DNA of 64,000 nucleotides from Syntrophaceae bacterium (GCA_003153775.1 PMBI01000083.1:62001-126000), one strand, 5' to 3'; positions 49,435-59,565 are shown, counted from the first letter of the stretch. The notes: generated by a model not told the origin, from the letters alone. A program made the numbers and translations.

Positions 49435-50637
49435 TTAGCCTTTCAGGATGCGCGCTCCTATTCTCATCTTGTCAAAGCAGTATGTCTCAAGGCCGGGGAC
49501 GATCATGCGGACAGTAGGAATGCCTGTGTCCGGTCTTGTCAGATTTACCGCTATCACACGCTCCAAACCCCTTGCCTGCAGCTTCCCGATTATGGTCCTG
49601 ACATCGTGGAGGATATCTTTACCGTAGCTCACTTCAATATCCCGAAGGCCCTTGTAATTGTATGCATAGAACCGCGGATCATCGGTTCTTTCCTGCTCAC
49701 CAAGATAGGCCGTTACGGGTTCGCACATCCCTTCGATCCCGAACTTCTGAATGAACAATGCTCTGGTGGTCACGATCTCGAGAAGGGAGCGAATCATGGC
49801 GACACGGGGATCAAGATGCGCGCCGAAACCGTCTACGGGTTTCATGGCGGGATAAACCAGGTCACGGGAGAAGGCGGCAATCACCGGCACCCCGATATCG
49901 GAAGTGATGTCTTTGGCGACGATCTCTATCTCGGCGTCTGCGAATTTGTCAAAAATGTTGATAATAAACTGGTTGTCGGGTTCATCCTCGATAAAGAGGG
50001 CGTCACTGTAACTACCCTCGTACCGCGCGATACTCCATGCGTCACGCTCGATGAGCTCCGCAAGGCCGTGCACAACGGCTTCTTCCATGGTGTTGCCTGC
50101 CGCAATGCCGTTCGTGTGAGTGTCCATAAGAAAGGCATCGTCGAGATGGTAGGGATGGTAGACCGCGCAGGCAGGGACCAGGATATCCTCATTCCGCGCG
50201 AGATCGCATCCCCATGTCCAGTGAATATCCTGATCATGATTGTAATCGCTGATTTTAGAAAGAATCATGTCGCGGGGATCGAGGATGTTGAACTTCTTTT
50301 TCAACTTGTTATAGCTGCCGCTCACCAGTTTACTTTTATACTCCTCTTTGAATTCCGACGAATAGCGTTCGATCGACTCCATTGTAAGAGACACCTGGGC
50401 CTGAATCTGGGATACGCCCTTACCCGTGTGGCTTGTTTTCGAACTGTCCGGCCTTTTACGGTGGCAGATAAAGACCGGAATCCCGATCCTGTCGAGGTCC
50501 GATGCTTCGCAGAAGCCAATCATGCTGACCAGTTCTTTGATGCTTTGGATAAATTGCAACGTGGAGTCCGGTGTCTTAGACCTGTGTGTCTCCAGGATGT
50601 AAACCTTGGGACACTCTTTTAGAATTATGCTTGGCAC
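49435..50637 (-). CDS. YcaO-domain protein resembling methanogenesis-marker-1 / McrA-type YcaO
   Basis: KECPKVYILETHRSKTPDSTLQFIQ...LDRIGIPVFICHR...GKGVSQIQAQVSLTMESIERYSSEF...HGLAELIERDAWS; GTG start at 50637. Confidence 0.88.
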   Translation of the reverse strand: MPSIILKECPKVYILETHRSKTPDSTLQFIQSIKELVSMIGFCEASDLDRIGIPVFICHRKRPDSSKTSHTGKGVSQIQAQVSLTMESIERYSSEFKEEYKSKLVSGSYNKLKKKFNILDPRDMILSKISDYNHDQDIHWTWGCDLARNEDILVPACAVYHPYHLDDAFLMDTHTNGIAAGNTMEEAVVHGLAELIERDAWSIARYEGSYSDALFIEDEPDNQFIINIFDKFADAEIEIVAKDITSDIGVPVIAAFSRDLVYPAMKPVDGFGAHLDPRVAMIRSLLEIVTTRALFIQKFGIEGMCEPVTAYLGEQERTDDPRFYAYNYKGLRDIEVSYGKDILHDVRTIIGKLQARGLERVIAVNLTRPDTGIPTVRMIVPGLETYCFDKMRIGARILKG

Positions 50638-50810
50638 TTTGATACTGCTCCCTTCAAATTAATCTTCCTGCGGGAAAAGCGAGCGATGGCCGCAATACCC
50701 CATACGGGAGCGTATACATATCAATACGCCGCCTCTTTTTCAACACGAGTTTTTTAAAGCAGGTTATTAGAACAGTCGCAACAATACAAATTTACGGCAG
50801 CTATTAAAGA
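50547..50810. repeat. Parental copy of a ~264-bp duplication (YcaO 5' end plus upstream region)
   Basis: Aligns by eye with 52834..53096 over full length, near-identical for the first ~100 bp. Confidence 0.92.
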
Positions 50811-51103
50811 TTATTAATTCGCCGTCAAGAGTCTTCTTAATTCATTTTACTGAAATTTGTGCGGCGACGGACCAATGAAGTATCGTGTGCGACTGTTTGT
50901 AGGCACGGGGCTATTTAGTTCACCTACAACTGCTCAGCAGTGGACATTCCTTAGAACTGAGGATTACGGATTGAAGACAGTAATGCAAAAATCAGCGGCT
51001 CGAGGAACGAGCGTCCGTTGGAGTGTGTGGTTATAAGTCCTTCTCTGCCTCTGCCTGATCTCACGCTTGTGTTTCTACTTCTTCTTGAATTCCACCAATC
51101 CAT

Positions 51104-51619
51104 CTATTTCTTCGAGGCATCATAAATCAATCTGAGATCGTTAATTCTGATGTCTTGAGGTACTTCAAAGAAGAGGTTCAACGAATCTCCGATGGCAGAA
51201 GCGTATACTACAGCCCCATCAGTCGCCTCATAATTAGACAACTTCTCAAAAACCTTCACCTTTCCGTAAGCACCAGGAGTATCAAAACGAACTTTCTTAC
51301 GGGTAACAAGGGTAAATGCTATGTTATTTAACGTCGAGCCTTTATCTATAGCTGTTATTATTGTTTCAATGATGACAAACCTATTACTTTCATTCTTTGG
51401 GTTACGTGCATTAATCGGCGTTTTCGTTGCCTCCGCTACCTTTGTAATTTTGACCTTACCGAGTCCCGTATCAATTTGTGTTCCCAGTCTGAGATTTGAT
51501 TCGAACTGGGCTGCTTCACTGAAGTCTATACAGAATAAGCACGCACTGAAATAGATGACCAAAAGATAAATTACTAGGTGGTATTGACGCAATTTCATAG
51601 TGTTCTCCTTTTCTAACAC
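51104..51619 (-). CDS. Secreted hypothetical protein (DUF4352-like?)
   Basis: Signal peptide; VKITKVAEATKTPINARNPKNESNRFVIIETIITAIDKGS; no certain family. Confidence 0.55.
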   Translation of the reverse strand: MLEKENTMKLRQYHLVIYLLVIYFSACLFCIDFSEAAQFESNLRLGTQIDTGLGKVKITKVAEATKTPINARNPKNESNRFVIIETIITAIDKGSTLNNIAFTLVTRKKVRFDTPGAYGKVKVFEKLSNYEATDGAVVYASAIGDSLNLFFEVPQDIRINDLRLIYDASKK

Positions 51620-51692
51620 AAAAATTAGCGAGATCCGGATTTATAGACGATTCGCCGCATGGCGTTGTTAAAAATCGTCTCTCACTACAGAC

Positions 51693-52241
51693 CTATTTTT
51701 GTAAAGAGACATCAATAAGATTGCCAATCTTGATGCGTTTGGGAGCAAATCCTTTTGGCACTTCCCATAGGAAGTTGAGAACGACGTAACCTCCTTTGGG
51801 AATTTTGAATTCAAGTGCACCCTCTGGCCCATCTATCATTGAAGTGTTCCATTGAACAGCACCGGAAGATTTTCCGCCCTCAAGCTCGACGCCTAATGTC
51901 TTTATACTTAGTGGTCCCTGCTTGTTGAATGATAAACCAGCAGATCCCCCAGCTACATGAATCCAGCATTGCGAGTATTGCTTGCCCTTCTTATCGGAGA
52001 TGGAACATTTACCTTGTTTGAAAATCAAGGTTGTTTCTGCGTCAGCCATAATTTTCGCTCCGTAGTAGTAGTAACTGACATCCTCCCCCTTGATTTTGGC
52101 ATTCCCATGTACCGGATTGACTATTCTTACGCCTGCCAACGCTAATGCTGACCCGATGACAAAAAACATTGCACCAAGAATAATTCCGACTTGGACAATC
52201 TGAATACACGTAAATTTTAATTTCTGATTTTCTGCAATCAT
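51693..52241 (-). CDS. Membrane-anchored hypothetical protein
   Basis: N-terminal TM; C-terminus FLWEVPKGFAPKRIKIGNLIDVSLQK; SD aaggagg. Confidence 0.6.
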   Translation of the reverse strand: MIAENQKLKFTCIQIVQVGIILGAMFFVIGSALALAGVRIVNPVHGNAKIKGEDVSYYYYGAKIMADAETTLIFKQGKCSISDKKGKQYSQCWIHVAGGSAGLSFNKQGPLSIKTLGVELEGGKSSGAVQWNTSMIDGPEGALEFKIPKGGYVVLNFLWEVPKGFAPKRIKIGNLIDVSLQK

Positions 52242-52303
52242 GTTTTCCTCCTTGCTTCTAACAAGTCTGTATATTCGGGGTTTTGTTTGGCTTTAGGTTC
52301 CAT
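52238..52303 (-). CDS. 21-aa micro-ORF overlapping the next gene by ATGA
   Basis: MEPKAKQNPEYTDLLEARRKT*; SD-like gaaaggagagg upstream. Confidence 0.3.
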   Translation of the reverse strand: MEPKAKQNPEYTDLLEARRKT

Positions 52304-52451
52304 CTAATCCTCTCCTTTCTAAGGGCTTAATTGTAACCCAATCGATGAGATGGTTCAGGGAATACTCAAAGGTGCCGGGGAGGATTTGTTTCTCAAAATG
52401 GATGGGGATGAATTTACCTTGTCCGTATGAATAGGGTTTGTAACGTGCCAT
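52293..52451 (-). pseudogene. N-terminal remnant of IS1182-family transposase
   Basis: Hand translation MARYKPYSYGQGKFIPIHFEKQILPGTFEYSLNHLIDWVTIKPLERRGLDGT*; first ~38 aa match the canonical IS1182 transposase N-terminus. Confidence 0.75.
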
Positions 52452-52559
52452 GCAACACCTAGGTTAATGGTTAAGCTGTTACCAACTCCAATTTTGCAAC
52501 AACACTACAATAATGTGCCCATCTCCACAATCATTTCACCCCTATGTCGTCCGTAGTCC

Positions 52560-52819
52560 GGGTCGGACCAAGCTAACTATTTAATATATCGTCAATCACG
52601 TTCCACAAGAACGTATTTTCAAGCCTTAGAGCATTGTTTTGGGTATCAAAATGGGTGCCGTAAGACAACAATGTATCGCGGAGTTCATGTGCGTTGTTGG
52701 ACATAGGTTCAATTCTTAGAAGTGTATTTTCAGAGTCAAAATTGGCCGTTTAAAGCTAATATCAGATCATTTATTGATGTGATTCTTCATGATGCCAAGT
52801 GCTTAACTTGGTCCGACCC
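52560..52819. mobile_element. MITE-like element, copy 1 (260 bp)
   Basis: TIRs GGGTCGGACCAAGCTAA / TTAACTTGGTCCGACCC; high identity to copy 2 at 55468..55727. Confidence 0.8.
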
Positions 52820-52833
52820 CACGACCGACCAGC

Positions 52834-52924
52834 GGATAAATTGCAGCGTGGAGTCCGGCGTCTTAGACCTGTGTGTCTCCAGGATGTAAACCTTGGGACA
52901 CTCTTTTAGAATTATGCTTGGCAT
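52834..52924 (-). pseudogene. Truncated duplicate of the YcaO gene 5' end
   Basis: About 30 codons matching the YcaO N-terminus (ATG in place of GTG), truncated next to MITE copy 1. Confidence 0.85.
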
Positions 52925-53096
52925 TTTATTGTTGCTTCCTTCAAATTAATTCTCCTGCAGGAAAAGCAAGAGGGGCCGTAATGACCCATACGGGAGCGTA
53001 TACATATCAATACGCGTGCTCTTTTTCAACACGAGTTTTTTAAAGCAAGTTTTTGAGAAAGCCGGAACGATGCAACGTAACCGCAGCTATTGAAGA
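52834..53096. repeat. Second copy of the YcaO 5'/upstream duplication
   Basis: Aligned to 50547..50810. Confidence 0.92.
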
Positions 53097-53151
53097 GAAA
53101 TGTCAGAGAGGTGCATAGGATTCGGGATAATTTAAACTGGAGGGTATCTTG

Positions 53152-53190
53152 TTTATCTTGGTGGGCCGTATGGGACAGATTAAAAGTCCG
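53152..53190 (-). pseudogene. tRNA-Lys remnant (3' end plus anticodon-arm fragment)
   Basis: tttatcttggtgggccgtatgggac + gattaaaagtccg, matching intact tRNA-Lys at 58107-58182 with ~18 nt internal deletion. Confidence 0.85.
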
Positions 53191-53539
53191 TCGGCGAATA
53201 ATTGATCTTGTCGCAACGCAGTGAGCCGTTAAATTTCTTGTATCATAGTCGTGATTTCTTATTCTATTTTTCATCGTTAATCCGATGAACAATGACGTGC
53301 CAATATTTAAGTCCGATTCTCTGGATCACTAGCCTCTTGCCCCTGTTAAGTTAATACGCCTGTACACATATTAAACTGTACAATATTCGTTTAGGATAAA
53401 TGTGATTTATTACTATGAGACTTATGCTATTTGAAACGATCCTTTTTTGATAGCACTCTCTATTAGAATAATTCTATTAAAATAATTTGTATCTATTTTG
53501 TACGGTCATTATAGCTTTAGACCTTCCCCTAAAAATTTG

Positions 53540-53556
53540 TCGACACGGTGTCGACA
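53540..53556. repeat. 17-bp perfect interrupted palindrome gtcgacacGgtgtcgac
   Basis: 8-bp arms, 1-nt centre. Confidence 0.8.
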
Positions 53557-53656
53557 CTCGAAGCTATACCCCGTTTATGGTCGCGTTCTGGGTCAATCTG
53601 GTCAGGTCGTTTGTTGTTATTCTTGTGAGTATGGCTGAGTGGCATACAAGTTATTA

Positions 53657-53715
53657 TGCATTATATATAGTGCACGATGCAGTAATAATGCTTATTATGC
53701 ACTATATATAATGCA
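53657..53715. promoter_or_regulatory. Inverted-repeat operator-like pair upstream of hipBA
   Basis: TGCATTATATATAGTGCA (53657-53674) and its exact reverse complement TGCACTATATATAATGCA (53698-53715). Confidence 0.7.
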
Positions 53716-53720
53716 CTGTA

Positions 53721-53749
53721 TTGACATATATTAAAGTATATGTTATACA
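53721..53749 (+). promoter_or_regulatory. Sigma-70-type promoter for hipBA
   Basis: TTGACA - 17 bp - TATACA, spacer contains acatata/tatatgt inverted repeat. Confidence 0.75.
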
Positions 53750-53780
53750 TTCCCAAAATAGCTTCTTAATGAGGTGAACC

Positions 53781-54107
53781 ATGGATTTCGGGAATATGAG
53801 TGATAAGGCTATCCTGTCTGAAATCGGCCTGCGTGTTAGCCGCCAAAGGCTGAACCGTGATATCACACAGATAGATCTTGCGAGGCGGGCGGGCGTTGCG
53901 CGCATGGTCGTCCAGCGCCTAGAAAGCGGACGCGGGTGTACCGTAGAAAACTTGATTCGCGTAATGCGGACGTTTGGCCTTTTGGATCAACTGGATGCTT
54001 TTCTCCCTGAAACGGGGTTGAGCCCGTTGCAGCTTGCTAAGTCCAGAGGGCGACAACGCCTGCATGCTTTTAGCAAGCGGCAAGGCCGGAAGCATGAGGA
54101 GGGCTAG
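53781..54107 (+). CDS. hipB: HipB-like XRE-family antitoxin/repressor
   Basis: ILSEIGLRVSRQRLNRDITQIDLARRAGVARMVVQRLESGRGCTVENLIRVMRTFG. Confidence 0.85.
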   Translation: MDFGNMSDKAILSEIGLRVSRQRLNRDITQIDLARRAGVARMVVQRLESGRGCTVENLIRVMRTFGLLDQLDAFLPETGLSPLQLAKSRGRQRLHAFSKRQGRKHEEG

Positions 54108-54110
54108 GGC

Positions 54111-55415
54111 ATGGCTGAACGCACACGAAATGTCAAGGTAGCAACGGTTGCCCTATGGGGGCGCAAAGTGGGTGCTGTAGCATGGGACAACGACCGGGGC
54201 TATGGCAGCTTTGAATATGAGCCCAGCTTTGTTGGAGGGATGTTAGAGATCGCTCCCTTGACTATGCCTCTACAAGGCGGTGTGTTTTCGTTTCCGACGC
54301 TGAATCATGACACCTTCCACGGGCTACCGGGTTTGCTGGCCGATTCTCTGCCGGATACATTTGGTAATAACATGATTGATATCTGGTTAGCTCGACAAGG
54401 GCGCAGTCCGCAAGAATTTACACCGGTAGAGCGGCTGTGTTACATGGGTGTTCGAGGTATGGGTGCGTTAGAGTTCAAGCCGGAGATCGGACGTCACGCT
54501 CGTACGTCAGAGCCAATCGAGGTATCAGAACTCACGCAACTGGCGGCCGATATTCTGCGGCACCGAACAGGATGGGCCGTGAATCTTAAAGGGGCAAGAA
54601 GAACACATGCCCTGGATGCAATCATTCGCGTCGGTACATCTGCTGGCGGTAAGCGGGCCAAAGCGATAATTGCATGGAATCCCGAGACGCATGAGGTTCG
54701 CTCTGGACAGGTTCCGGCACCGCCAGGTTTTGAACTGTGGATTCTCAAGTTCGATGGAGCGAATGAGGCATCCCTGGGAGATCCTCAAGGATTTGGACGA
54801 GTCGAATATGCTTACTACCTGATGGCTGTGGCAGCCGGAATCACGATGAAACCCTGTCGGCTCCTGGAAGAAAACGGGCGGGCACATTTTATGACCCGCC
54901 GGTTCGATCGTACCGCAGAAGGTGAAAAAATACATATGCAATCGTTATGCGCTCTTGCCCATTACGACTTTAACGCGGCAGGGCAATACGGCTACGAACA
55001 ATCGATGTCAGTCATACAGCGGTTGAAGCTGGGACACCCGACCATGCAAGAAATGTTCAGGCGTATGGCATTTAATGTTGTGGCCAGGAACCAGGACGAT
55101 CATACCCGAAATATTTCATTCCTGATGGATCAAAGCGGTGTCTGGCATTTGTCGCCGGCTTTTGACGTGGTGTGGGCCTTTAACCCCGCTGGGGATTGGA
55201 CAAACCGTCATCAAATGAGCATTAATGGGAAGAGGGATGACTTTACGAGGCAGGATATTCTTGCTGTTGCAAAACAATATGGAATCAGAGGGGCTCAGGA
55301 AATTCTGTCCCAGGTTATTGATACGGTTGCGCACTGGCCAGCGTTTGCGGGTGAAGCAGAACTGCCGAAGAAACTCATGAAGAAAATCACGCCAACACAC
55401 CGCCTTAAGTTATGA
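54111..55415 (+). CDS. hipA: HipA-like kinase toxin
   Basis: VGTSAGGKRAKAIIAW, ELWILKFDG, MTRRFDR, AFNVVARNQDDHTRNISFLMD, LSPAFDVVW. Confidence 0.9.
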   Translation: MAERTRNVKVATVALWGRKVGAVAWDNDRGYGSFEYEPSFVGGMLEIAPLTMPLQGGVFSFPTLNHDTFHGLPGLLADSLPDTFGNNMIDIWLARQGRSPQEFTPVERLCYMGVRGMGALEFKPEIGRHARTSEPIEVSELTQLAADILRHRTGWAVNLKGARRTHALDAIIRVGTSAGGKRAKAIIAWNPETHEVRSGQVPAPPGFELWILKFDGANEASLGDPQGFGRVEYAYYLMAVAAGITMKPCRLLEENGRAHFMTRRFDRTAEGEKIHMQSLCALAHYDFNAAGQYGYEQSMSVIQRLKLGHPTMQEMFRRMAFNVVARNQDDHTRNISFLMDQSGVWHLSPAFDVVWAFNPAGDWTNRHQMSINGKRDDFTRQDILAVAKQYGIRGAQEILSQVIDTVAHWPAFAGEAELPKKLMKKITPTHRLKL

Positions 55416-55467
55416 TCTCGTTTTTTTGTCTATAGACACAGAAATGTGTGCCTTAATGCCTTAATCC

Positions 55468-55727
55468 GGGTCGGACCAAGCTAACCATTTAATATATCGT
55501 GAATCATGTTCCATAAGAACGTATTTTCAGGCCTTAGAGCATTGTTTCTGGTATCAAAATTGATGTCGCAAGAAAACGATGTCTCGCGGAGTTCATGTGC
55601 GTTGTTGGACATAGGTTCAATTCTTAGAAGTGTATTTTCAGAGTCAAAATTGGCCGTTTAAAGCTAATATCAGATCATTTATTGATGTGATTCTTCATGA
55701 TGCCAAGTGCTTAACTTGGTCCGACCC
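55468..55727. mobile_element. MITE-like element, copy 2 (260 bp)
   Basis: TIRs GGGTCGGACCAAGCTAA / TTAACTTGGTCCGACCC; direct orientation relative to copy 1. Confidence 0.8.
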
Positions 55728-55751
55728 CACGACAGCACGTCAAACATGCGG

Positions 55752-56501
55752 TTACGTTGTTTTGGTGCTCTTAGGTGGGTTAAAATACTCAGCAACTTTT
55801 CCAAGCATAAATTGAGTTGCCATGTCAAAAACTTTGTATTTTTCGATTTTTGCGTTCTTCGGTGATGTGACAATGACAGCTCCCGAAACTTTGTTTAGGG
55901 AAGGAGCTATTGATGCCCCTATTAGAGATCGCAGTCGGTTTGAATAATCTTCCCATGGCGTATCATAGGTTAGCTTTATCAATTCATTCCTTAGTGCAGG
56001 GTCTCGTGGCAGATGAATCTTTCCCTCTTCTAATAGCTTTGTGAATTCGTCCCTAGCTTCCCGCCATCTATCACCCAGTGCATGAAATCTGTCTCCAAGT
56101 ATGATAGCATTTAATGCGTCAACTGCCTGTTCAGGGTTAACTGTTTCTCCATCAATTTTATCTAGATGAATCTGAAGCCTGAAGATTAGCAACATCATGT
56201 CTACCGGCAATGGTTTATCAATTTGGATGTTCCTAATTTCTTTGACTTCAATGCCATCAACTCTCTTTTGCAAGACAACTACATACGGCTCATAAACACT
56301 CTTCTCTGTTCCCTCTTGAGAGACACCTATTACGCATTCGTCTACATTAGTTTTCTTGATGCCTTCGAAAGCACATTCAAAAGCTCGGATTATTGGGTGT
56401 GGCCGATATTCAGGATTTTTCTTGTGCTGTCTTGTAATGTAATCGAGGAAAATCCTCATGCCATCACCAAAGAAATCGATTTTCGTTTCTTCATTCATCA
56501 C
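55752..56501 (-). CDS. Unknown protein, island gene 3
   Basis: ORF 249 aa, 11-bp overlap with upstream gene; no family confidently recognised. Confidence 0.7.
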   Translation of the reverse strand: MMNEETKIDFFGDGMRIFLDYITRQHKKNPEYRPHPIIRAFECAFEGIKKTNVDECVIGVSQEGTEKSVYEPYVVVLQKRVDGIEVKEIRNIQIDKPLPVDMMLLIFRLQIHLDKIDGETVNPEQAVDALNAIILGDRFHALGDRWREARDEFTKLLEEGKIHLPRDPALRNELIKLTYDTPWEDYSNRLRSLIGASIAPSLNKVSGAVIVTSPKNAKIEKYKVFDMATQFMLGKVAEYFNPPKSTKTT

Positions 56502-57381
56502 TGGTTCTCATAAGCAAGTTAATCAGGTTGCTTTTTTTGGCCGACAATATTTTTTCCGCTTCCTTTCTTTCTTTTATAAGCTTTTTAATGTCCCGGCCAG
56601 CCATACAAAGAGACACCACACTACCAAGGTACGGGATGAAACCAGCTAAAAAGCCTGCTGTGGTAAGCGGTATTTCAATATTGGTTGCCTTTAGCACTTT
56701 TTTTTCTAAGGTACGTATTTCAGACGATTGCTGCTTAAAGGCATCTTTCATATTTTTCTGGAGTTGCGCAGATACTACTGACAGATCTTTATCAGTTTTC
56801 GCCTTTAAGTCTGTAATGCCGGTTCTGAGTATACTTCTCATGTAATCTAACGTGTTTTCTTCTCGAAATTCTTTTATTGCCTTAATCGGCACCTTGGTTA
56901 ACCATTGAAATTTCTCTTTTTGAAGAGAATTAGCAATTGATGCATCCAAGTTTGGTGCGCCTGCTTCGTATGTGTAAAAGAACCACGGCAACTCATAGTC
57001 ATATATTGGCTCAGCAATTAATCTTTCACAGAAGTACTTATGTTCCTGAACTCTTATGAATTGTGATTGAAGATACAAGCCAAAATTCCAACCAATTGAC
57101 TTATCACCGAAGGGAGGCTTTATTTCTTGTTCGGTAAAATTTTCTAGAAAACTGTCGAGTGAGTTTATGTTCTGAAACAAGCCTGGAAGAAACTTTATTT
57201 CCTTAAGATTAGAAAATAATTCTTGGCTCGTAGTGATTCTATCTAAGAAAGTAAAAGTTTCGTCTAGGTTTGAAAAGTTATACGATGTTATTCTATTGAT
57301 GTAAGCAATATATCTTTCTCCGGCTTTCTCTATTAGTGTTTCTCTTTTATTCTTACCGATCGAATGCAAACTTATAGGCAA
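56491..57381 (-). CDS. Unknown protein with C-terminal hydrophobic hairpin, island gene 2 (probably the 3' part of a split gene)
   Basis: ORF 296 aa; TAGFLAGFIPYLGSVVSLCMAG; TTG start lies inside the end of the upstream ORF. Confidence 0.65.
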   Translation of the reverse strand: MPISLHSIGKNKRETLIEKAGERYIAYINRITSYNFSNLDETFTFLDRITTSQELFSNLKEIKFLPGLFQNINSLDSFLENFTEQEIKPPFGDKSIGWNFGLYLQSQFIRVQEHKYFCERLIAEPIYDYELPWFFYTYEAGAPNLDASIANSLQKEKFQWLTKVPIKAIKEFREENTLDYMRSILRTGITDLKAKTDKDLSVVSAQLQKNMKDAFKQQSSEIRTLEKKVLKATNIEIPLTTAGFLAGFIPYLGSVVSLCMAGRDIKKLIKERKEAEKILSAKKSNLINLLMRTSDE

Positions 57382-58039
57382 TATTATGATGATATCGTTC
57401 CTTGCTGTCTGCCAATAGTAAATCTTTCAACTTCCAAATATTAAATACATGTCTTATAAGCTTGGCTAGAAAATATTTTTTATTAACGTAAAGTTCTTTT
57501 GGGAATAAAGACAGATTAAATATAGGGTCTGGGATAACAACAGTATCAATGTATAATGCGCTTTTTTTGACGAAATTCTCTAGAACAACCGGTGTGATGT
57601 CTCCTGAGTATAGACATTTCAAAGCACTTTGTTCTCTTGTGTAATCAAAAAGAATCCTCGCGTTTTCATCCCAAAATTTAAAGACAGCGGTATCTAAATC
57701 ATGTATTGAATCAAGTATAAGATCTGAAATTAGGGGATAATTTGCCATATGGATTCCTAAGTCGATATGGCTATCTTGGCTATCACCTAGGTAGTGCTTG
57801 ATGCTTCCAAAATACGACTCAATAATATCAAAATAGTTTTTGTAGATTTTCTGAATTGCAGATCTTTTCATCAGATTGCCCTTCATGTCCTTTTCTATAC
57901 CTTGGCTGGGTGCTAATAATATTATGTCAGCTTGAAATGTACCATATTTTAACAAACCTTGAAAATAACGATTTAAGGACGTGAGCAAACGGAGATTAGT
58001 CCCCGATTGAGTAACACGCCGGCTATAAAATACATTCAA
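57353..58039 (-). CDS. Unknown protein, island gene 1 (probably the 5' part of a split gene)
   Basis: ORF 228 aa; VVIPDPIFNLSLFPKELY...; out-of-frame overlap with 56491..57381. Confidence 0.65.
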   Translation of the reverse strand: MNVFYSRRVTQSGTNLRLLTSLNRYFQGLLKYGTFQADIILLAPSQGIEKDMKGNLMKRSAIQKIYKNYFDIIESYFGSIKHYLGDSQDSHIDLGIHMANYPLISDLILDSIHDLDTAVFKFWDENARILFDYTREQSALKCLYSGDITPVVLENFVKKSALYIDTVVIPDPIFNLSLFPKELYVNKKYFLAKLIRHVFNIWKLKDLLLADSKERYHHNIAYKFAFDR

Positions 58040-58106
58040 GAAATTTGATTTGCTGAGATTTGGAAGGAAGGTATTTGTTGTAAGGTCTGCAGTGTACTGA
58101 TTTATC

Positions 58107-58182
58107 TGGTGGGCCGTATGGGACTTGAACCCACGACCAACGGATTAAAAGTCCGCTGCTCTACCAACTGAGCTAACGGCCC
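58107..58182 (-). tRNA. tRNA-Lys (anticodon UUU), CCA encoded
   Basis: GGGCCGTTAGCTCAGTTGGTAGAGCAGCGGACTTTTAATCCGTTGGTCGTGGGTTCAAGTCCCATACGGCCCACCA; 7-bp acceptor, D, anticodon and T arms intact. Confidence 0.97.

Positions 58183-58251: not shown

Positions 58252-59565
<1,314 letters not shown>

Follow-up and report, generated by a model that had tools for sequence, protein, structure and literature searches.

A probable decayed, integrase-less island at a recurrent integrase target, tRNA-Lys(UUU), in a Syntrophaceae bacterium

The stretch of DNA analysed here (64,000 nucleotides of a Syntrophaceae bacterium, referred to as the window, from an assembly of 3.13 Mb in 98 contigs) very probably carries a decayed, integrase-less island at a tRNA-Lys(UUU) gene that serves as a recurrent integrase site (Table 1). 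An intact tRNA gene and a broken-off tRNA end on either side of acquired genes are the usual footprint of a phage-type integrase. Three features nevertheless speak against this reading, i.e., the missing integrase, the damage to the T arm of the displaced tRNA end, and a duplicate of the ycaO 3′ end to the left of this relic, which would not be expected from one clean integration. The general mechanism, in which an integrase inserts an element into a tRNA gene, is already well known; the present analysis adds a tRNA gene that integrases have targeted repeatedly, in an order with few cultured members.

Table 1. Features of the ycaO–purA region, with positions counted from the first nucleotide of the window
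Feature	Position	Strand	Remarks
ycaO-family gene	49435–50637	–	conserved left neighbour of the site
Native ycaO 3′ end and spacer, first copy	50548–50804		continuous with the intact ycaO; truncated at about 50805–50815
Insert A	50805–52833		two short ORFs (51104–51619, 51693–52241) and MITE copy 1
MITE copy 1	52560–52819		94% identical to copy 2; inside insert A
Second copy, ycaO 3′ end and ycaO–tRNA spacer	52834–53158		colinear with the G003 empty site; runs into the relic
Displaced tRNA-Lys 3′-half relic, distal att site	53159–53190	–	18-nt internal deletion, 1 nt extra
Insert B (island proper), 4.9 kb, integrase-less	53191–58106		absent from the G003 empty site
hipB-like antitoxin gene	53781–54107	+	HTH_3; couple_hipB below cut-off
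hipA toxin kinase gene	54111–55415	+	HipA_C 1.4e-49; Couple_hipA 2e-17
MITE copy 2	55468–55727		terminal inverted repeat GGGTCGGACCAAGCTAA; inside the island
Gene Y, 249 aa	55752–56501	–	relative of a SEC-C protein whose gene adjoins X in Sutcliffiella
Gene X	56491–58039	–	split by a frameshift into ORFs 57353–58039 and 56491–57381
att block (tRNA-Lys 3′ half)	58107–58155		tRNA read as the regenerated integration target
Intact tRNA-Lys(UUU)	58107–58182	–	ARAGORN; Rfam RF00005; synteny with purA in sister genomes
purA	58252–59550	–	conserved right neighbour; by translation and order-wide conservation

The sole tRNA gene that ARAGORN detected in the 64-kb window was the tRNA-Lys(TTT) at 58107–58182 on the minus strand, in agreement with the initial annotation, which had described it as intact. 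Two strings of this gene recur at the left end of the island, i.e., TGGTGGGCCGTATGGGAC (58107–58124 in the tRNA and 53159–53176 in the relic) and GATTAAAAGTCCG (58143–58155 and 53178–53190, respectively). Between them, the relic lacks the 18 nt whose counterpart is 58125–58142 of the tRNA and has gained one A, and this damage takes out most of the T arm. The relic is located 4,948 bp downstream (i.e., to the left) of the tRNA on the same strand, and the earlier description of it as a tRNA 3′ half with an 18-nt deletion and an extra nucleotide, oriented as expected for integration at a tRNA 3′ end, proved correct to the base. All words of at least 11 nt common to the window and the 48-nt 3′ block of the tRNA fall, outside the tRNA itself, within the relic, and the match is therefore not a chance one. 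With at most one mismatch allowed, the 16-mer GTGGGCCGTATGGGAC occurred at two sites in the 3.13-Mb assembly, i.e., the tRNA-Lys and the relic. Past the anticodon stem, the relic shows no tRNA 5′ half.

A search of sister genomes for an empty site had been proposed beforehand as a check, and gave a positive result in G003, where the ycaO 3′ end, the spacer, and tRNA-Lys follow one another without interruption (L021, 15513–15940). The window is colinear with this empty site from 52834 through the relic, and in silico removal of the island yielded a sequence that aligned end to end with the G003 site, with one duplicated base at the junction of the join. On the other side, similarity to the sister genomes G001, G002, and G003 (90–95%) restarts at 58098–58101, at most 10 nt from the tRNA 3′ end. 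In G002, the gap between ycaO and the tRNA is filled by 4.2 kb of other genes (L041, 6590–10790) and no tRNA fragment was seen within it, so that part of the variability at this gap is not integrase-made. These G002 genes are short ORFs that resemble those of secreted proteins.

Relatives of the ycaO gene at 94–95% identity were found in the Syntrophaceae metagenome bins fen_1164, fen_1168, and AM-sed-core3-D1_bin-194. The near relatives are all draft metagenome bins, and G003 has a second contig with the purA region, which is a sign of strain mixture. Since the assemblies are metagenome bins, a mis-join or mis-assembly in the window may be conceivable.

Integrases were encountered at the same tRNA gene in several relatives. 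G001 carries, at a contig end to the left of the tRNA, the C-terminal 135 aa of a tyrosine integrase (PF00589, 7.8e-20) whose gene stops 6 bp from tRNA-Lys. G030, which belongs to a different family within the order, has a complete 364-aa integrase that also ends 6 bp from its tRNA-Lys and is 57% identical to the G001 fragment across the shared part. An integrase-like frame faces tRNA-Lys in G132, and integrases adjoin a displaced tRNA-Lys fragment in G011 and G141. Such displaced 3′ halves of tRNA-Lys(UUU) numbered eight in seven genomes (G011, G030 twice, G031, G131, G132, G138, and G141), with fragment and tRNA sharing a contig in G011, G030, G031, and G138 and lying on separate contigs in G131, G132, and G141. 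All eight start at the 3′ end of the tRNA and terminate 0–3 nt beyond GGATTAAAAGT, on the 5′ side of the anticodon loop, and the relic in the window shares this end point (3 nt past GATTAAAAGT). Given this common end, and the integrases beside several of the fragments, tRNA-Lys(UUU) is a recurrent integrase target in the order.

Two of these genomes have blocks of genes at tRNA-Lys (14 kb in G011 and 5.4 kb in G138) that carry a DNA-methylase-like gene, a TOTE primase-helicase gene, and Fic genes, and no integrase was detected in the 5.4-kb block. The G138 block (L131, 1866–7380) is situated between the displaced fragment and the intact tRNA-Lys, and its genes include Fic, the TOTE primase-helicase, and an AbiEi-like frame. 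Across the order, the 5′ half of tRNA-Lys is nearly constant and the T stem varies as paired base sets (L001–L020). Possibly, part of this T-stem variation arose through repeated replacement of the 3′ half by integrating elements. A T-arm difference that separates G002 and G003 from the window and G001 was likewise considered as a trace of att replacement, and was set aside as not diagnostic because T stems vary freely across the order.

The Islander criteria comprise a tRNA gene with a displaced fragment that includes the gene end, lies downstream in the same orientation, and delimits 2–200 kb, with a tyrosine integrase inside or overlapping (PMC4383910); the anticodon-centred att class accounts for 2083 of the 3919 Islander islands (PMC4383910). 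The island in the window resembles these in the fragment itself, in the order and orientation of tRNA and 3′ fragment, in its length (4.9 kb), and in its anticodon-type (class A) att. It differs from them in its damaged fragment and in having no integrase, on which ground the Islander filter would reject it, whereas integrases are present at the same tRNA in G001, G030, and G132. An empty site in a close relative, such as that of G003, is the classical proof of such an island, although it does not figure among the Islander filters. Because the integrase is missing, we refer to a decayed island and not to an active one. The claim of the initial annotation that no recognisable integrase lies between the repeats held in profile, tblastn, and motif searches, which revealed neither an integrase nor a remnant of one in this interval.

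The G030 island and the G001 fragment share the tRNA-Lys(UUU)–purA setting with the window, and the G030 relics end at the same point. In contrast to the window, however, both have an integrase with its C-terminus toward the tRNA and other cargo, while the two G030 relics are 39 and 42 kb away. The G138 block resembles the island in being small, with no integrase detected, with cargo of the defence or toxin–antitoxin type, and with a mildly damaged relic, although its genes are unrelated and its relic keeps the T arm.

Together, these comparisons speak for a history in which an element bearing a tyrosine integrase entered the 3′ half of the tRNA-Lys(UUU) gene beside purA, crossing over within the anticodon loop. 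The element's own 3′ half would have restored the tRNA-Lys, and the host's original 3′ half would have been displaced to the far side, where it now stands at 53159–53190. Later, the integrase would have been lost, the distal att would have been deprived of 18 nt, and gene X would have been frameshifted, the remaining 4.9 kb (hipBA, the MITE, and X–Y) probably being left immobile. We infer that an integrase of this kind made the junction in the window, that the events took place in this order, and that mobility was lost.

The island that had been annotated as 4.9 kb long and bounded by tRNA repeats was borne out in both respects, but the duplication of the ycaO 3′ end and insert A had been missed, and the acquired region already begins at about 50805. 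Since the second ycaO copy is located to the left of the relic, the variable region of 7.3 kb must stem from at least two events. The ycaO/spacer copies at 52834–53100 and 50548–50804 are 87% identical, which sets them about as far apart as the species of the genus in this stretch (82–91%), and judging from this divergence the duplication would be old, or else the second copy would derive from another strain. Direct copies around an insert are the product of a single-crossover insertion, and also of tandem duplication combined with insertion. Either mode might explain insert A. In an event separate from that of the island, it would have come to lie between two directly repeated stretches of ycaO 3′ end plus spacer, either by Campbell-type single crossover of a circular molecule with a ycaO-3′ segment or by tandem duplication with insertion.

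No match to insert A was found between ycaO and the tRNA in G003. Part of it (50921–51709) resembles a small mobile cassette. This part matches one end of contig C158 in G001 at 98% identity, with other genes as its neighbours there, and the flank of that G001 locus has its counterpart on contig C16 of the window's own genome. Arrival of insert A together with the island was considered and is not favoured, given its position outside the relic and the 98% identity of a part of it to a different G001 locus. The stretch at 50921–50998 resembles a short dispersed repeat with many copies in related genomes.

The duplication could also be read in another way, i.e., that the ycaO 3′ end, the spacer, and tRNA-Lys were duplicated in tandem by ordinary recombination, after which the left tRNA decayed and genes accumulated without any integrase. 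The ycaO 3′ end and spacer are truly duplicated, which means that a duplication did happen at this locus, and the lack of an integrase also agrees with such a course. Nevertheless, a decayed tandem tRNA is not favoured because the relic is without a tRNA 5′ half beyond the anticodon stem and breaks at the att boundary. Moreover, it stops just where the fragments displaced independently in other genomes stop, and the duplicated ycaO and spacer lie to the left of the relic instead of beside the intact tRNA, so that their duplication alone cannot have put the fragment 4.9 kb off. Overall, we regard this course of events as quite improbable.

Alternatively, a strain that already carried the island might have donated it together with its flanks through homologous recombination, possibly via the MITE copies and the purA side. 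This would fit with MITE copy 1 abutting the start of the second ycaO copy, and with the higher identity to G003 on the purA side (94.5%) than on the ycaO side (88.9%), but the corresponding contrast for G001 is small (94.8 vs. 92.9%) and the second ycaO copy is no closer to the sampled sisters than the first. Import of this kind seems unlikely to us; it would, moreover, only shift the integrase event to the donor and is as such compatible with a decayed island of integrase origin.

Another alternative is that the island is non-autonomous but mobile, with an integrase encoded elsewhere excising and moving it in trans. The similar small integrase-less block of G138, which has an intact tRNA-Lys at one end and a relic at the other, might point in this direction, as might the three PF00589 genes elsewhere in the genome from which the window is taken. 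The latter, however, resemble the tRNA-Lys integrase weakly (28–33% identity over short stretches), while 18 nt are missing from the distal att and gene X is broken, making continued mobility most improbable. On a more speculative level, the purA-side tRNA-Lys(UUU) could act as a hot spot throughout the order, and its small occupants that lack an integrase (i.e., those of the window and G138) could be satellite-like toxin–antitoxin or defence blocks moved in trans by the integrases of full islands, with X–Y as an undescribed two-gene defence module, a scenario that we consider highly doubtful.

Within the decayed island, GC content differs between hipBA (ca. 54%), X and Y (33–40%), and the flanks (50–52%), and the cargo is therefore a mosaic. 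Both hipBA and a MITE, reported earlier between the repeats, were found there again. From their sequences, hipB and hipA are intact and would form a type II HipBA system, an HTH antitoxin gene being followed by that of a HipA kinase with N- and C-terminal domains. HipA homologues with 69–79% identity were found in other families of the order and no comparable homologue in the window's own family. Because homologues this close are missing from its own family and DNA similarity is limited to 53776–55407, hipBA probably travels as an operon. A small island can thus decay while its toxin–antitoxin pair stays intact. Both MITE copies have ends that match those of an element on contig C26 of the genome from which the window is taken (279500–285000; L099), and this element has an IS200-like transposase, Y1_Tnp (L099, 1459–2253). 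With its terminal inverted repeats and these ends in common with a transposase-bearing genomic copy, the MITE is of the IS200/Y1 type.

The unknown genes reported between the repeats are present as well, but two of the ORFs turned out to be parts of one frameshifted gene (X), whose relatives mostly consist of one continuous frame (452 aa in Sutcliffiella, 577 aa in Photobacterium, and 546 aa in G341). Neither the C-terminal part of X nor Y occurred in any of the 155 further genomes among the 156 of the class, and a draw of 396 genomes from the phylum yielded two weak relatives of the N-terminal part of X. On the Sutcliffiella plasmid pBH-BAT-167, from the Bacillus group, an X relative and a SEC-C protein gene form a pair in the same gene order, and Y is 26% identical to this SEC-C protein over 92% (3e-16). 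A Photobacterium plasmid and the E. coli phage-like plasmid p13P477T-2 also bear X relatives, that of p13P477T-2 being the one match of X in phages; the C-terminal part of X had no match in the phage search. These plasmid relatives differ from the genes in the window by their low identity (21–30%), by the frameshift in the window X, and by the window Y having no SEC-C hit. For the E. coli relative there was a weak match to PADLOC DitB (1e-9), whereas no PADLOC Dit match, as for the Aditi (DitAB) system, was obtained for the window X or Y. A role of X–Y in defence is a guess, prompted by the one relative on a phage-like plasmid and the weak DitB match of that relative. As a paired gene family, X and its SEC-C-type partner may be a candidate for phage defence. 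The E. coli relative of X is itself also annotated as two overlapping ORFs, split at a different place.
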